Origin: Parasphingorhabdus marina DSM 22363
Lineage (GTDB): Bacteria; Pseudomonadota; Alphaproteobacteria; Sphingomonadales; Sphingomonadaceae
Assembly (NCBI RefSeq): GCF_900128895.1
Contig: NZ_FSQW01000001.1
Span: 62,001 to 126,000, forward strand
DNA length: 64,000 nt
Reading direction: 5' to 3'
Shown: one piece after another, positions 9,630 through 49,874 of the stretch
How positions within the stretch are numbered: the stretch's first letter is position 1
Layout: each line of letters starts with the position of its first letter
The notes under the pieces: model-generated
What the model was told of the DNA's origin: nothing
Databases searched by the model: none
What the model saw: only the letters and a program-made list of their open reading frames with translations
Program-made: the position numbers and the translations under genes

Positions 9630-10289
9630 ATGTTTATCGGTCATTTTGCGCCGGCCATGGTTGCCGCCACTCATCCCAAAGCGCCGGGTCTCGGAACGCT
9701 TTTCGTTGCCGGACAGCTGGTTGATTTCGGCTTTTTCGGTCTGGCTTTGCTGGGCATCGAAAAATTCCGTATCGTGCCCGGCACCACGGTGATGAATCCG
9801 CTGGACCTCTATCACATGCCCTATACGCACAGCCTGCTCGGCAGCGGCATATGGGCGCTGGCATTCGGGTTGCTGATCTGGATGATCACACGCAACCGGA
9901 CCGGCGCAATCATCGGGGGACTCGTCGTCCTGTCTCACTGGCTTCTCGACCTGCTCGTCCATGCCCCTGATCTCACGCTAACGGGCGCGCCGCCCATGCT
10001 CGGTCTCGGGCTGTGGAATTATCCCGCCATCACCATGCCGCTTGAGCTCATTCTGACATTCGGCGCGCTGGCCTTTTTTGTGAGCAGAACCCGTTCAACT
10101 TCGCCGCGATCGCGCCTGGCGCTCGTCCTTCTGGCCGTATTGCTGGCCTTTCTTCAAATCTATAACTGGTTTGGACCGGAGCCGGAAACCGCGGACGCGG
10201 CCATGATGATCACGGCGTTGATCGCGTTCGCCCTCGCAGCCGCAGCGGCCGCCTTTGTCGCCCGGACCCGGACACTGAAAACCGCCTGA
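9630..10289 (+). CDS. YdjM-like integral membrane protein (putative metal-dependent hydrolase)
   Basis: This 219-residue protein has about six membrane segments. Conserved polar residues sit at membrane edges: HFAPA near the start, MPYTHSLLGS, and SHWLLDLLVHAPDL. This His/Asp arrangement is typical of the YdjM/DUF457 group, annotated as membrane-bound metal-dependent hydrolases without proven substrates. GGGGGAGAG upstream is a purine-rich ribosome-binding site. It starts a plus-strand cluster with DUF2177, a flavoprotein and a methyltransferase, separated by gaps of 21 and 32 nt and one overlap, so coexpression is likely. A second, unrelated-looking YdjM-type gene lies at 31.0-31.5 kb. Confidence 0.75.
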   Translation: MFIGHFAPAMVAATHPKAPGLGTLFVAGQLVDFGFFGLALLGIEKFRIVPGTTVMNPLDLYHMPYTHSLLGSGIWALAFGLLIWMITRNRTGAIIGGLVVLSHWLLDLLVHAPDLTLTGAPPMLGLGLWNYPAITMPLELILTFGALAFFVSRTRSTSPRSRLALVLLAVLLAFLQIYNWFGPEPETADAAMMITALIAFALAAAAAAFVARTRTLKTA

Positions 10290-43217: not shown

Positions 43218-44782
43218 ATCTCCACGTCAACCAGTGCCCGCAATTCGGTCTTCAGGATCTTGCCGATATGGCTGCGCGGGAGCTCGGCGATCAGGCGCAG
43301 TTCGGAGAGGCGCTGGGTCTTGCCGAGATCGGCATTGGTCGCCGCCCGCAAGCCTTCCGGGTCAAGCGTCACACCCGGTTCCGCGACAACAAAGCCAAGC
43401 GGCGTCTCGCCCCATTGTTTCGAGGGCACGCCGATCACTGCGGCATCGGCGACACCGGGCTGCTCCATCAGTGCTTCTTCCAGATCGCGCGGATAGATGT
43501 TGAAGCCGCCGGAAATGATCATGTCCTTGGACCGGCCCATCAGGGTGATGAAGCCGTCTGCATCGACCCGGCCGATATCGCCCATGCGCTGCCAGCGGTC
43601 GCCATTTTCGTCATACCAGCTGGCTTCCTCGGTCTTTTCCGGCTGGTTCTGATAGCCGCTCATCATCGTCTGTGAGCGCCCGACCAGCTCACCCATTTCG
43701 CCAGTGGGCAGGCGATTCAGATCCTCGTCGACCGTGATCACCTCGCTGCCGCCCCAGGCGATTCCGACCGTGTGCAGCTTGTCGGGATGGGCGTGGGCGA
43801 GCAGGATGCAGACCACCCCGCCCTCGGTCATCGAATAGATCTCGATCAGCCCGCCCGGCATGCGTTCGAGCACCTCGGCTTTCAGCTCGGCCGAGAAGGG
43901 CGCGCTGGTACAATATTTGTGGGTGAAGGTCGAAAGGTCATAATCATCAAAACCCTCAAAATCCATAAGTCTTTGATATTGAACCGGAACCAGCATGGTA
44001 TGCGTGGCGCGATGTTGCTGGGCCAGCTCCAGCCAGCGCTGGCAGTCAAACTTGCGCATCAGCACGGCGGTGCCGCCATAGGCCATGGTCGCGACGAAGA
44101 TTCCGAGCGTCGTGTTGGAATAGAGCGGCGTCGAAAAGAGCGACACCTGACCCGGCTTGCCATAGCCCGAATTCTCGCCCACCGCCATCTGGTACCAGCG
44201 CATCTGGCGGCTGTGGACAATGCCCTTGGGCGTGCCGGTGGTGCCGCTGGAATAGATGATATTATAGGGATCTTCCGGGCCAACACCGGGATCCGCAGGC
44301 ATCGCGCCTTCCTCCGCCATCCAGTCGAAGAAGAGCGGTGCGTCGTCCTCGGCGGCATCCATCATGATGTGCTTGAGCGGCGGTAACTCGAGCCCGCTGT
44401 CACGCATCTCGGCGCGTTTGGGGCCGTCGATAAACCAGTGCATCGCCCCGCTGTCCCGCGCCATGTTCGCCAGCTGCTTCGGCGTTGCCGAGGTCGTCAG
44501 CGGCGCCGCACAACCGCCGGCGACAATCGCCGCGAGATAGACCAAAGCATAGCGAATGGTCGTCGTGCCCAAGATCGCCACCGCCTGGCCTTTCTCGAGC
44601 CCGTCCGCCTGCAACTGCGCCGCAATCCGGTTGACCAGCGCCGCCGTCTCCGCCCAGCTGAGCTGCTCCTCCCCGTCATCCAGCGCGATCCGGTCAGGCT
44701 GATTGACCGCATGGGCGTTGATAAGATCGGCGAGATGGCCGAAAGGCTGGTCGAGATAGGCGATGGGGTCGATTTTGGTCAT
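43214..44782 (-). CDS. AMP-binding acyl-CoA synthetase
   Basis: A 522-residue adenylate-forming enzyme activating a carboxylic acid to its CoA thioester. The P-loop is YSSGTTGTPKGIVHS, the central motif YSMTEGGVVCI, the hinge region GRSKDMIISGGFNIYPRDLEEAL, and the C-terminal lysine lies in PRSHIGKILKTELR. The substrate acid is not evident. The start codon at 44780-44782 lies inside a REP-like half element, and no Shine-Dalgarno sequence is visible in front of it, which is odd for a gene of this kind. Confidence 0.93.
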   Translation of the reverse strand: MTKIDPIAYLDQPFGHLADLINAHAVNQPDRIALDDGEEQLSWAETAALVNRIAAQLQADGLEKGQAVAILGTTTIRYALVYLAAIVAGGCAAPLTTSATPKQLANMARDSGAMHWFIDGPKRAEMRDSGLELPPLKHIMMDAAEDDAPLFFDWMAEEGAMPADPGVGPEDPYNIIYSSGTTGTPKGIVHSRQMRWYQMAVGENSGYGKPGQVSLFSTPLYSNTTLGIFVATMAYGGTAVLMRKFDCQRWLELAQQHRATHTMLVPVQYQRLMDFEGFDDYDLSTFTHKYCTSAPFSAELKAEVLERMPGGLIEIYSMTEGGVVCILLAHAHPDKLHTVGIAWGGSEVITVDEDLNRLPTGEMGELVGRSQTMMSGYQNQPEKTEEASWYDENGDRWQRMGDIGRVDADGFITLMGRSKDMIISGGFNIYPRDLEEALMEQPGVADAAVIGVPSKQWGETPLGFVVAEPGVTLDPEGLRAATNADLGKTQRLSELRLIAELPRSHIGKILKTELRALVDVEI

Positions 44783-44803
44783 GCTGAACTTGTTTCAGCA
44801 TCC
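44779..44803. repeat. REP-like half-element overlapping a start codon
   Basis: The 25 nt containing CATGCTGAACTTGTTTCAGC match the left arm of the palindrome at 17479-17505 with one difference. Here it includes the ATG of the acyl-CoA synthetase (minus strand), so the element replaced the gene's native leader. Confidence 0.8.
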
Positions 44804-44856
44804 GTTCTGAAAAGCAACGCGCGATATTTGTGGTCGCGTCCGATTCCGAAGATTTT

Positions 44857-45307
44857 TCACGCGAAGCCGCGAAGGCACTAAGAGGTCGGCGTGTAGTTGT
44901 TGGCTATGCGCTTCAATCCTTCTTTGAAAGTGGCGCAACCAAAGTTCATGAGAAGGCCTATCGGCAGATTCATGAGACGCAGATATGTCAGTACCTGTTT
45001 TCCATAAACCGGAGCCATGCGCTCTGTGGATTTCAGTTCGACAAGCAATATTTCATTCACAACAATATCCGCCCGAAACCCTTCGCGAAAAGTCATGTCG
45101 TCAAATTGGATTTCGACCGGCTTCTGCCGGTCAACAGCATAACCCCGCTTTTGGAGAGTCGTTGCGAGAACGGTTTCATACACCGATTCCAGCAGACCCG
45201 GACCAAGCTGTTTGTGAATATGAAACCCACAATCGATCACATCGGTTATCACATCTTCCAACCGGTCCAACAGCGCCTTCGCTTTGTGCCTTCGCGGCTT
45301 CGCGTGA
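44857..45307. mobile_element. GxxExxY cassette copy 1 with terminal inverted repeats
   Basis: A 451-bp unit. The left end (44857-44882) contains CACGCGAAGCCGCGAAGGC and the right end (45282-45307) is its reverse complement, 25 of 26 positions matching. Only one gene, a GxxExxY protein on the minus strand, lies inside, and its stop codon (44878-44880) falls within the left repeat. A second unit with the same design lies at 46789-47232. I see no target-site duplication and no transposase. It is inserted between two same-strand genes without disturbing them. Confidence 0.75.
44878..45270 (-). CDS. GxxExxY protein (PDDEXK_3), copy 1
   Basis: A 130-residue protein named after its motif, here GLLESVY within LGPGLLESVYE. 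It also has the PD-(D/E)XK-like core REGFRADIVV and LLVELKSTE (Asp, then Glu-x-Lys), so it looks like a small nuclease-fold protein; activity is unproven. YGKQVLTYLRLMNLPIGLLMNFG is the conserved C-terminal half. The first usable start is TTG at 45270. It is the only gene of the inverted-repeat cassette and roughly half of its residues match copy 2 at 46.8-47.2 kb. Confidence 0.88.
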   Translation of the reverse strand: MDRLEDVITDVIDCGFHIHKQLGPGLLESVYETVLATTLQKRGYAVDRQKPVEIQFDDMTFREGFRADIVVNEILLVELKSTERMAPVYGKQVLTYLRLMNLPIGLLMNFGCATFKEGLKRIANNYTPTS

Positions 45308-45371
45308 TTAAACTTTACGAAGCGAGTCTAATGCAGACAGACGTTCAATCCAATTGACAAGACGGGACAAT

Positions 45372-45860
45372 CTACCCCGCCACCAGCTTCACGAAGGTGC
45401 TCTCGACCCAGCCGCTGGCGCAGGGGCCGTCATAGTTGCGTTTGGAGCGGACCGGTGAGGAGACGCCGCAATCGACCGCGCTTTCGCCCTCGGCAGGCGT
45501 GGGCGCATAGACAACGCCGAGCCATTGCTGGTCATGGCTGCGGGTGCAGATATAGACCTGCTGGCCGATTTGCAGCCCGTCCTTGCGCTCTGCGGCGTCA
45601 AAGGGGGCGATCAGGACGCTGAGGGGGCCGCCTGGCGGGCCCGTAACCTGACCAACCGCCTGACAGGCATCAAATCGCGGACCGCCCTCGCCGATCCGCA
45701 CCGGGCGTTCGCCGGGACTGGAGGCGACCCGGTCACCGCGGCCCGTGGGATTGGCTACGTCGGTCTGAGCATCGGGCAGGTCCTCGCTGACCTGGGTATT
45801 TTCCGCGCAGCCACTGGCGAGAAGCACAGCGGGCAAAAGAACAAGCAATCGTCTGAACAT
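45372..45860 (-). CDS. Lipoprotein with SH3-like domain
   Basis: A 162-residue protein with a lipobox (ASGC, Cys18) followed by a Pro/Gly/Asp linker and a C-terminal SH3-like beta-barrel: LQIGQQVYICTRSHDQQWLGVVYA, then CASGWVESTFVKLVAG. Bacterial SH3-like domains often bind peptidoglycan or accompany envelope hydrolases. Four cysteines in the domain could pair. No specific partner is next to it. Confidence 0.82.
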   Translation of the reverse strand: MFRRLLVLLPAVLLASGCAENTQVSEDLPDAQTDVANPTGRGDRVASSPGERPVRIGEGGPRFDACQAVGQVTGPPGGPLSVLIAPFDAAERKDGLQIGQQVYICTRSHDQQWLGVVYAPTPAEGESAVDCGVSSPVRSKRNYDGPCASGWVESTFVKLVAG

Positions 45861-45965
45861 GTTGCGGGTCTAGACCAAAAGCATGGGCTTTGGGAAGATT
45901 TGAATGCGGGGCAGCGTGAGAGAACGGATTTCTGTTCATCGTGAACCGGAGAAGAAGTCCCCGGC

Positions 45966-46039
45966 CCCGCTCGTGGTGAGCCTGTCGAACCATGATGGTC
46001 ATGCCATTTCATCCTTCGACAGGCTCAGGATGAGCGGGG
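45966..46039. repeat. REP-like palindrome with GAGCCTGTCGAA arms
   Basis: Arms CCCGCTCGTGGTGAGCCTG... at 45966-45992 and its near complement at 46012-46039 share the perfect 12-mer GAGCCTGTCGAA/TTCGACAGGCTC. This palindrome is very common between genes of alphaproteobacteria in my recollection. It stands in the 500-nt gene-free stretch 45861-46362, together with the multi-hairpin repeat copy C. Confidence 0.8.
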
Positions 46040-46062
46040 GTTTGGAATAGCGGAGAGGTATT

Positions 46063-46351
46063 GAGTCTTTTTTTGAACCTCAAGCGCCGGGCGCGGGCAT
46101 CCGCCCGCTTGGCTTTCCTCGCATAAGCTCGGGCGCGCAGTCGCGCTTGCCTCGCTGCGCTCGGTTCACCGATCTATCGAGAGGGCACTAATCCGACGCG
46201 ATGCGGAGGCAAGGCCGACCGGCCGCCGCGCCTTATTGGCGCGTAGCCAAGGCGACGGATGTCGCCGCCCGGCGCTTGAGGTCTAAAAAAGACTCTTCCG
46301 CGCCCGGCGCCTGAGGTTCAAAAAAGAATCTCCGGCGATTGAGGTCTAAAA
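46063..46351. repeat. Multi-hairpin dispersed repeat, copy C
   Basis: Same orientation as copy B. The left arm (46078-46164) has GCGGGC-ATCC-GCCCGC and GCGCG-CAGT-CGCGC. The centre is again exactly 28 nt (46165-46192). The right arm has GGCC-GACC-GGCC, CGCGCC-TTATT-GGCGCG and GGCGAC-GGAT-GTCGCC. Three tail units with TGAGGT and A-runs follow, ending 12 nt behind the thioesterase stop. Confidence 0.9.
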
Positions 46352-46362
46352 TATTTCCCCGT

Positions 46363-46773
46363 TCACAAAACAATCTGCGTCTGGGTCACCACCGCCACCA
46401 GCGTGCCGTCCGCCAGCGTGATCCGTGTCTGCCAGACCGACTGGCGCCGCCCGACTTTCAGCGGAGTTGCCTCACCAAATACCGTCTGGCCTTCCGGCGC
46501 AGCGCTGAGGAAATTGGTCTTGCTTTCCGAGGTAGTGGTCCCGTTCGATCCTTCGGGCAGATTGGCAAAGCCGCCAAAGGCACCCAGCACATCAGCAAAG
46601 GTCATCACCGCACCGCCATGAATTGACGGCGTCCCGCGGCCATTGCCAGCCGTACAGATTTCCGGCCGCACCAGCATCTGCCCGACAATCCGGTCCTTGC
46701 TCATCTCGGTTATTTCAATACCCATTGTCTTGGCAAAAGGTACCATGTCGGCAGGATTGGTCATCGGGATCAC
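46363..46773 (-). CDS. PaaI-like hotdog thioesterase
   Basis: A 136-residue hotdog-fold acyl-CoA thioesterase. The catalytic-helix region is GRGTPSIHGGAVMTFADVLGAFGGFAN (HGG motif of the PaaI group), followed by TTTSESKTNFLSAAPEGQTVFGEATPLKVGRRQSVWQTRITLADGTLVAVVTQTQ. The upstream end collides with the extended reading frame of the second GxxExxY gene. ATG at 46773 or 46764 are both possible starts. The substrate is unknown. Confidence 0.9.
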   Translation of the reverse strand: MIPMTNPADMVPFAKTMGIEITEMSKDRIVGQMLVRPEICTAGNGRGTPSIHGGAVMTFADVLGAFGGFANLPEGSNGTTTSESKTNFLSAAPEGQTVFGEATPLKVGRRQSVWQTRITLADGTLVAVVTQTQIVL

Positions 46774-47200
46774 CTTGTTCGGTTTGATTCACGCGAAGGC
46801 GCGAAGAAGCGAAGTCACTATGGTTGTTGACGATACGTTTGCAACCTTCCTTGAATGTCGGGGCGCCGAAATTCATCAAAAGACCGAGCGGCAATTGCAT
46901 CAAACGCAAATAGGTCAGAACCTGCTTTGCATGCACGGGCATGTGCCGCTCGGTAGATTTCAACTCAATCAGCAGCTTGTTCCCGACAACAATATCAGCC
47001 CGAAATCCTTCCCGCAGGATTATTCCATCATGTTCAATCCTGACCGGTTTTTGCCGGTCGACTTGCAATCCATGCCCGGCCAGGGCGTTGGCCATCAATG
47101 CCTCATATACGCTTTCCAGCAGTCCCGGACCAAGGTCTACATGCAGCTTGTAACCGCAATTCACCGCAATTTCGGAAAGCCTTTCAACAGAATGTTCCAT
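46715..47200 (-). CDS. GxxExxY protein (PDDEXK_3), copy 2, C-terminally extended
   Basis: This has the same family blocks as copy 1: LGPGLLESVYEAL, REGFRADIVV, LLIELKSTERH, HAKQVLTYLRLMQLPLGLLMNFG. The conserved part ends near CKRIVNNH. In copy 1 a stop follows within a few codons in the terminal repeat; here no stop is present. The frame runs through the repeat (translated DFASSRLRVN) and on into the start of the thioesterase gene, adding about 35 unrelated residues. Start ATG at 47200. Confidence 0.85.
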   Translation of the reverse strand: MEHSVERLSEIAVNCGYKLHVDLGPGLLESVYEALMANALAGHGLQVDRQKPVRIEHDGIILREGFRADIVVGNKLLIELKSTERHMPVHAKQVLTYLRLMQLPLGLLMNFGAPTFKEGCKRIVNNHSDFASSRLRVNQTEQGDPDDQSCRHGTFCQDNGY

Positions 47201-47232
47201 GGGCTTATCTTCGCATTCTTCGCGCCTTCGCG
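46789..47232. mobile_element. GxxExxY cassette copy 2 with terminal inverted repeats
   Basis: A 444-bp unit of the same design as copy 1. The left end contains CACGCGAAGGCGCGAAGAAG (46789-46814). The right end (47209-47232) is the complement of CGCGAAGGCGCGAAGAA plus GCGAAG with one extra base. The shared core between both copies is CGCGAAGscGCGAAG. It lies between the divergent thioesterase and gyrB genes. Confidence 0.72.
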
Positions 47233-47339
47233 CGACAAGAAACGGAAGAATGTCCTTTTATGGTAACCATCTGTTTTTATTGGCTTATAATATCCGAAAA
47301 TCCAACAAATTCCTTGGGTTTCCCGGGCCAAAGGTCTAA

Positions 47340-49874
<2,535 letters not shown>

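Follow-up and report, generated by a model that had tools for sequence, protein, structure and literature searches.

Among described pairings of a gene with a family of intergenic repeats, the closest to the one considered here is that between REP-associated tyrosine transposases (RAYTs) and REPINs, hairpins built of repetitive extragenic palindromes (REPs). In the parts of the REP and REPIN literature drawn on (PMC3733652; PMC8049555), the enzyme gene is flanked by its own repeat, gene-less hairpins are dispersed, the gene occurs in few, vertically inherited copies and is absent from or rare on plasmids, and gene-bearing genomes are richer in the repeat (PMC8049555); CGTC-tagged REPs are reportedly without a dedicated transposase. 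The intervening sequence of 23S rRNA with its S23 protein is described as a 428-nt element (PMC4990558). In a 64,000-nt stretch of the Parasphingorhabdus marina DSM 22363 genome (NZ_FSQW01000001.1, positions 62,001 to 126,000; hereafter the window), two genes of the GxxExxY family each lie between their own inverted repeats, termed arms. It is proposed, with modest confidence, that such GxxExxY units supply the enzyme in a repeat system of two parts, functionally similar to REPIN-RAYT and built on an unrelated enzyme. Arms surround most GxxExxY genes and gene-less hairpins of the same arms occur mainly in gene-bearing genomes, so that gene and repeats look like a paired DNA system, which may spread itself.

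Both genes are on the minus strand and are the only PF13366 genes found in the window genome (G000, 3.55 Mb). The initial annotation had described two units of almost equal length holding one GxxExxY gene each, a 26-nt inverted repeat with 25 matches around the first, a repeat of the same family around the second, and similar but diverged proteins, all of which was borne out. The units measure about 451 and 444 bp, and proteins 1 and 2, with domains 63% identical, match TIGR04256 (E 2.9e-36, 124.4 bits and E 2.2e-34, 118.3 bits; cut-off 35) and PF13366 (E 9.1e-36, 123.2 bits and E 7.6e-33, 113.8 bits; cut-off 22). The arms of unit 1 are 34 nt long and 88% complementary, with the 26-nt core confirmed, those of unit 2 are 20 nt long and 95% complementary, and the arms of either unit also pair with those of the other (three inverted-repeat pairs). 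Their inverted-repeat scores, 48 and 44, exceed the 99th percentile (26) of 2669 control windows scored in the same way with slightly longer flanks. The stop codon of gene 1 falls within an arm, which therefore overlaps the reading frame, and the open frame of gene 2 continues through its arm into the thioesterase start, its C-terminal end being arm read-through. The nuclease gene is the sole gene inside each unit; the known transposase that marks an insertion sequence or a miniature inverted-repeat transposable element (MITE) is absent from both.

Across bacteria, inverted arms are the rule around GxxExxY genes. When each gene was scored by the best inverted repeat that its two flanks form, and a locus counted as positive above the same threshold of 26, the control windows being taken from the same loci, 130 of 159 scorable loci from many phyla were positive. 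These comprise 24 of 30 genus loci, 42 of 50 phylum loci and 64 of the 79 scorable among 80 loci from GTDB species, this wide sample being the best-scoring of 579 candidates and skewed to sphingomonads; since two places were sampled twice (L034/L119 and L039/L130), 128 of 157 distinct loci are positive. The score is above the single highest control window at 39 of the 159 loci. Positive taxa include Alpha- and other Proteobacteria, Verrucomicrobia, Planctomycetes, Chloroflexi, Cyanobacteria, Bacteroidetes and Gemmatimonadetes, and the positive units have a median length of 470 bp (5-95% range 435-614). Prospectively, all 20 loci fetched later from the family Sphingomonadaceae (among them L449, which coincides with L143 of the wide set) and all eight GxxExxY genes of genome G514 were positive. 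The comparison of flanks across genomes that the initial annotation had suggested as a check thus finds most genes bounded by inverted repeats at near-constant distance.

An arm consists of three tandem 8-10-nt words, roughly TCRCGNRAG, a consensus drawn by eye. In 83 units with ungapped arms, the arm is sharply delimited: relative to the first word it spans about -4 to +26, and past about -13 and +32 the identity between left and right falls to near background. Over the first 12 nt, identity is 0.91 between left and right arms of one unit and 0.59 between units, which indicates that paired arms are more alike than a common consensus requires. The GTAG tag lies close to none of 58 hairpin ends and to 6 of 260 cassette ends (2 of 58 and 4 of 254 at 200 bp further out), and CGTC is not enriched at cassette ends (7 of 260 vs 15 of 254 at 200 bp out). 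In G514, the arms of one GxxExxY gene (L328, near 9776-10123) are unusual in being A-rich (AAAAGCCACAAAG...) and may represent another arm class; a string similar to these lies beside a hairpin of the same genome (L335, near 7400).

The same arms are found as hairpins without a gene. In the window genome, the word with at most one mismatch has 18 matches, at least two of them apparently inside genes; close matches make up the arms of both units, four more inverted pairs of 64-71 bp and one outward-facing pair. The exact genus pattern is present in 24 of 32 genus genomes, with up to 27 copies per genome, and the reversed pattern in none of the 32; around the 80 wide-sample loci (1.21 Mb, outside units), 61 words and 6 hairpins were counted, against 3 and 0 for the reversed motif. 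Hairpin spans are 71-74 bp in 15 and 57-62 bp in 9 of 34 distinct Parasphingorhabdus hairpins, some of them orthologous, and 71-74 bp in 26 of 32 distinct G514 hairpins, mostly copies of one family. As the origin of the hairpins, internal deletion of gene cassettes was rejected, since their loops are unlike unit ends (of 21 loops, 0 and 1 reach the 95th percentile of the null). Two longer units (261 bp in G002, 283 bp in G005) look by eye like decayed cassettes carrying another repeat.

The dispersed arms go with the gene. In a set of 377 genomes from the family Sphingomonadaceae, 87 with and 290 without the gene, the word is present in 111 and was counted by us 1611 times, against 27 matches for the reversed pattern (at most 4 in any genome). 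It occurs in 73 of the 87 gene-bearing and 38 of the 290 gene-less genomes, and at least ten words beyond two per gene in 31 and 8 of them, respectively; when gene labels were shuffled within 28 mixed genera (214 genomes), the observed value was reached in 0 of 5000 trials. Fourteen gene-bearing genomes are without this exact word, some of which (G024, G029) have arms of another spacing. Among 12 genus genomes with a complete match list, 37 free class-A words lie in seven genomes with a class-A gene (none of them in G003) and 5 in the five without, kinship being uncorrected; four of these 5 belong to G012, a genome that is 82% complete. The initial annotation had named repeats equally common without the gene as the outcome that would speak against it: arms do occur without an adjacent gene, and they do so mainly in genomes that carry the gene.

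As to the enzyme, the AlphaFold model of protein 1 has a predicted local distance difference test score (pLDDT) of 94.3 and a predicted template modelling score (pTM) of 0.88. In 72 sequences E28, D68 and K80 are invariant and E78 nearly so, which corresponds to the E, D and ExK of PD-(D/E)XK. The nearest PDB structures by Foldseek, all weak matches (best E 1.1e-3), are SSO0001 (4ic1), which we take to be Cas4-like, MGME1 and LHK-Exo; a search by sequence for solved relatives gave none that was convincing.

Protein subfamily and arm word vary together. Arms ending in AT, a rule noticed and counted in the same loci, accompany 10 of 11 proteins with a one-residue gap before the catalytic Asp and 0 of 118 other proteins; outside the counted set, the proteins from Treponema and Fusobacteria, which by eye seem to be of the gap type, go with AT words, and CACGGAA arms go with three NQ-Y-PD proteins. 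Over 69 thinned loci, protein and arm distances are correlated (Mantel r 0.327, 0/999; distal control pieces 0.079), and correction for flank composition alters nothing. These comparisons support the view that protein subfamily predicts the arm word, as would be expected if the protein recognises its ends, a possibility raised in the initial annotation. They also bear on the idea that the hairpin repeats came first and took up a nuclease gene again and again as passive cargo. Hairpins and genes do occur apart, and some gene-less genomes are arm-rich; nevertheless most gene copies across phyla have arms, and the arm word follows the protein subfamily even where AG-class and AT-class units coexist in a single genome (G056, G079), so that passive capture, judged from the GxxExxY genes and their arms, appears very unlikely.

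Arms are numerous in G514, which has 8 genes and 172 arm words; in the congeners G566 and G443, both without the gene, the words number 1 and 0. Many G514 hairpins lie in an element of about 157 bp with a CGTC-tagged REP at its start and end, found by our own count at about 40 places, and approximately half of the hairpins sampled sit within CGTC-tagged REP dimers. An outer hairpin stands on 15 of the 30 sides of 15 G514 hairpins in the fetched stretches (0-1 of 30 at other distances) and on 7 of 58 sides in Parasphingorhabdus, and outer hairpins are not in excess at the gene cassettes scored. One G514 composite, folded as single-strand DNA, is far more stable than its shuffles (z -8.7). When 19 G514 elements were compared with G566 stretches, 14 found no match, 3 corresponded to sequence without the hairpin and 2 to other sequence, with junctions that are not clean.

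It may thus be asked whether the hairpins belong to other repeats, a RAYT (of HUH type) or another transposase moving REP dimers in which GxxExxY arms ride. The REP-bounded G514 elements and their outer hairpins speak for this, and one gene for a HUH transposase (PF01797) is present in G514. No match to PF01797, the one transposase family searched for, was found in the window genome, in 30 of 42 genomes tested, or in seven of ten tested genomes with GxxExxY matches and at least 35 words (one of these, G627, with a broken GxxExxY gene). The RAYT as a general mover was rejected, since PF01797 is absent from most arm-rich GxxExxY genomes tested; considering also the lack of outer-hairpin excess at scored cassettes and the low count in Parasphingorhabdus, REP passengers are a rather improbable explanation. 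A bolder extension of the enzyme-and-repeat proposal would make GxxExxY nucleases a second, bacteria-wide class of REPIN mobilisers using a word code, which, by themselves or through their arms, would also be what spreads CGTC-tagged REP dimers, via arm hairpins lodged between both REPs, as in G514; this is offered as a speculation with little chance of proving right.

The history of the units can be followed at shared sites. Between the thioesterase gene and gyrB, 30 genomes, classed by eye, comprise eight with full-length units, two of which have stop codons (G006, G029); five with shortened units, of which G018, G025 and G027 keep a protein remnant and G011 and G016 were judged by eye; eight with a 256-282-bp region of arm relics or unclear content; and nine empty ones (151-163 bp). 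A homing endonuclease element would split its own recognition site, which empty alleles would carry; the flanks of the empty regions seen here are too diverged to define such a site. In seven genomes (G007, G008, G010, G012, G014, G019 and G022; L238, L242, L234, L246, L237, L247 and L243), some 260 bp replace the unit and share stretches such as TTTTGCACAAAG and CCCCTAT...TTTGATAA, which may be a relic or a conserved element of another kind. At the ligase site, the unit is intact, in tandem, decayed or missing, and at a third site (L047) some genomes carry, by eye, a different hairpin repeat instead. Species far apart within the genus thus share the same sites, which are full in some, internally deleted in others and empty in the rest. 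Among seven copies at the thioesterase-gyrB site (G029 with a stop codon), the gene has a median ratio of nonsynonymous to synonymous substitution rates (dN/dS) of 0.097, from the 15 of 21 pairs that gave a value and with dS >1 in 12 of the 15, compared with 0.041 for the thioesterase and 0.065 for gyrB. Shared sites, decay and purifying selection together make the units look old in place, mostly inherited and often lost. Copy number is low: 80 of 87 carriers have one or two matches, and the maximum is 8.

Purifying selection and fixed sites also suit the strongest rival, regulation by binding alone, in which the arms are operators and terminators, and the protein, by binding them, would control its own gene and, via dispersed hairpins, others, with no DNA movement. 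The link between protein and word needs binding only, and the dispersed hairpins sit, in the pieces read, in apparently intergenic stretches. Autoregulation, however, needs no second arm past the stop codon, the 172, 1 and 0 arm words of the three congeners look like amplification, and catalytic residues are invariant or nearly so; regulation alone is accordingly considered unlikely, with a chance that deserves to be taken seriously.

Carriage by phages or plasmids found little support. The same 8 of 72,556 plasmid records hold GxxExxY with either of two queries, and 0 of 50,697 phage records do with one query (L066, a relative from another family); in viral_contigs, query A1 gave 6 divergent loci (31-42% identity; gene matches only, flanks aside) and A2 none. 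In the arm test, four of the eight plasmid loci (Bacteroides finegoldii, Gemmatirosa, Bernardetia and Sphingomonas parapaucimobilis) score above 26, that of Treponema scores 22 with a short AT-class repeat, and that of Fusobacteria bacterium ZRK30 (L413) scores 13, AT-class words flanking its gene, by eye, as direct and not inverted repeats; the Prevotella and Persicobacter loci show no arms. In the S. parapaucimobilis locus (L411, 1471-1899), the unit lies between fabD and fabG, all on the same strand, and its gene, the C-terminus of which is read through the arm, ends a few bases before fabG. The minimal mobile cassette of the initial annotation holds as regards a gene in its own arms, but does not look like one that hops freely, the gene being fixed at shared sites and rare in plasmid and phage records; what is dispersed is mostly the gene-less hairpin. 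The annotation expected empty sites in close relatives; empty states are seen at shared sites, none of them clean.

A defence or toxin-antitoxin nuclease, the repeats protecting self DNA or acting as sensors, could likewise be imagined for a PD-(D/E)XK protein. Defence and phage libraries gave one weak partial match each, for protein 2 only, that from PADLOC being to a reverse transcriptase (RT)-associated PDDEXK (E 9e-4, 35 residues). There is, however, no partner gene within the two window units, housekeeping genes stand next to it wherever, in a few cases, the context was read (gyrB; radA; fabD/fabG), and the gene is rare in plasmid and phage records, which leaves this the least probable of the explanations considered.

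The simplest account of all results, from the conserved, sharply bounded arms and their matching within units, through the associations of subfamily with word and of dispersed arms with the gene, to the shared and decayed units at fixed sites, purifying selection and conserved catalytic residues, is an enzyme plus its substrate. A nuclease gene lies between two inverted arms, and where a loop, often about 8 or 21 nt long, connects such arms directly, they make up the gene-less hairpins found dispersed in intergenic places. Probably acting as a dimer, the protein would recognise its own arm class, most likely extruded as a hairpin or cruciform, and would cut at the recognised arm pair; host repair or replication might then occasionally copy arm pairs to new intergenic places, the gene copy itself mostly staying in place and being inherited. 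Binding, cleavage, and cleavage leading to copying and movement are what we infer in this scheme.

Several observations weigh against this account. At 29 of the 159 loci no inverted repeat exceeds the threshold, a mixture of weaker arms (at least L044 and L061), broken units and some loci with no arms found. With 3 mismatches allowed, the pattern in the window genome is near control, at 70 (43+27) vs 58 (30+28), and only closer matches stand out. Eighteen gene-less genomes carry at least five arm words, for which past gene loss could account, and the hairpin loops do not derive from unit ends. The amplified G514 unit is bounded by outer CGTC-type REPs, not by arms. Inside the main protein subfamily, the Mantel correlation is weak (0.162 vs 0.083 for the control), and it is no longer significant when thinning is taken further, to a set of 16 (69/999); by parsimony, a FastTree tree requires 5 changes of arm class, where shuffles require 15.8 on average and never fewer than 13, and 2 changes of the gap, so that the link between protein and word is strong, yet rests on few events. 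Target-site duplications are not in excess, a direct match of at least 6 bp being found in 3.6% of the 83 ungapped-arm units vs 2.7% in the null. Gene presence is patchy on the gyrB tree, with carriers and empties interleaved, which requires repeated loss or exchange of the site; whole sites may have been exchanged between species. No clean empty site was found, the thioesterase-gyrB, ligase and L047 sites showing empty or alternative states with diverged flanks, and no movement or transposition was seen.

Coordinates of both units and their neighbours are collected below. The neighbours of unit 1 are a gene for an AMP-binding ligase and a small open frame; on the far side of unit 2 stands the gene taken to be gyrB, a name given from its protein and not drawn from a family search.

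Features of the two GxxExxY units in the window (positions are those of the window)
Feature	Position	Strand	Remarks
Left arm, unit 1 (gene 3' side)	44849..44882	.	core TCACGCGAAG-CCGCGAAG-GCACTAAG
GxxExxY protein 1	44878..45270	-	130 aa if read from TTG, the choice of start codon being uncertain; family domain ~44905-45255, of PD-(D/E)XK fold
Right arm, unit 1 (gene 5' side)	45282..45315	.	
Thioesterase gene (neighbour of unit 2)	46363..46773	-	with gyrB-like gene, delimits site full, deleted or empty elsewhere in the genus
GxxExxY protein 2 open frame	46715..47200	-	161 aa; family domain ~46832-47182
Left arm, unit 2 (gene 3' side)	46789..46808	.	
Right arm, unit 2 (gene 5' side)	47216..47235	.	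upstream of gyrB
gyrB-like gene	47349-49874	+	other side of unit 2 from thioesterase gene

Other repeats are present nearby. At 46069-46325 lies a long imperfect palindrome, unrelated to GxxExxY arms, with repeated CGGCGCTTGAGGTCTAAAA units (85-nt arms 73% and 28-nt arms 96% complementary). A hairpin of GAGCCTGTCGAA / TTCGACAGGCTC type at 45965-46039, with a sub-threshold Rfam match to an Aggregatibacter small RNA, resembles a common alphaproteobacterial REP, and a GTCATGCTGAAC...TTTCAGCATCC hairpin repeat occupies 44778-44812, some tens of bases beyond the left arm of unit 1. The Rfam scan of 44000-48000 gave three matches, every one under the gathering score, and promoter and terminator scans gave chance levels.

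GxxExxY is a widespread family of unknown function, and tying it to a defined DNA substrate would lead directly to a binding and cleavage assay, in which AG-class and AT-class arms provide a built-in specificity control. If the enzyme spreads its arms, this would be a REPIN-like system whose nuclease is unrelated; a class of intergenic repeats would thereby be explained, and there may be a hint at how CGTC-tagged REPs spread. In the open-licence PMC papers searched, GxxExxY has one passing mention in each of two papers, PF13366 occurs in one, six 15-nt arm words are unmatched and the gene-repeat system is not described.

With regard to known systems, both window proteins are far above the cut-offs of TIGR04256 and PF13366; these family models cover only the protein, the arms being the new part. 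Intervening sequences of 23S rRNA form hairpins and, like the GxxExxY unit, hold a small gene in an element of similar length, but the GxxExxY protein is unlike S23 and the units do not lie inside rRNA genes. Insertion sequences and MITEs also combine a gene between terminal inverted repeats with short gene-less relatives; in contrast, the only gene of the GxxExxY unit encodes a PD-(D/E)XK nuclease, no target duplication was found, and copies are few and at shared sites. While a GxxExxY hairpin often fills the gap between two CGTC-tagged REPs in G514, cassette ends have no excess of CGTC or of outer hairpins. The likeness is closest to REPIN-RAYT, as regards a gene flanked by its presumed substrate repeat, dispersed gene-less hairpins, few copies, vertical inheritance, absence from or rarity on plasmids and more repeats where the gene is present. 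However, the GxxExxY protein is a PD-(D/E)XK nuclease and not an HUH/Y1 tyrosine transposase, its arms are three tandem 8-10-nt words with no GTAG tag, and it occurs in genomes without any PF01797 match; because the enzyme has another fold and the repeat lacks the GTAG tag, it is not a member of that system. No known repeat or mobile family tested fits the GxxExxY unit, while its mode of working has a known parallel.

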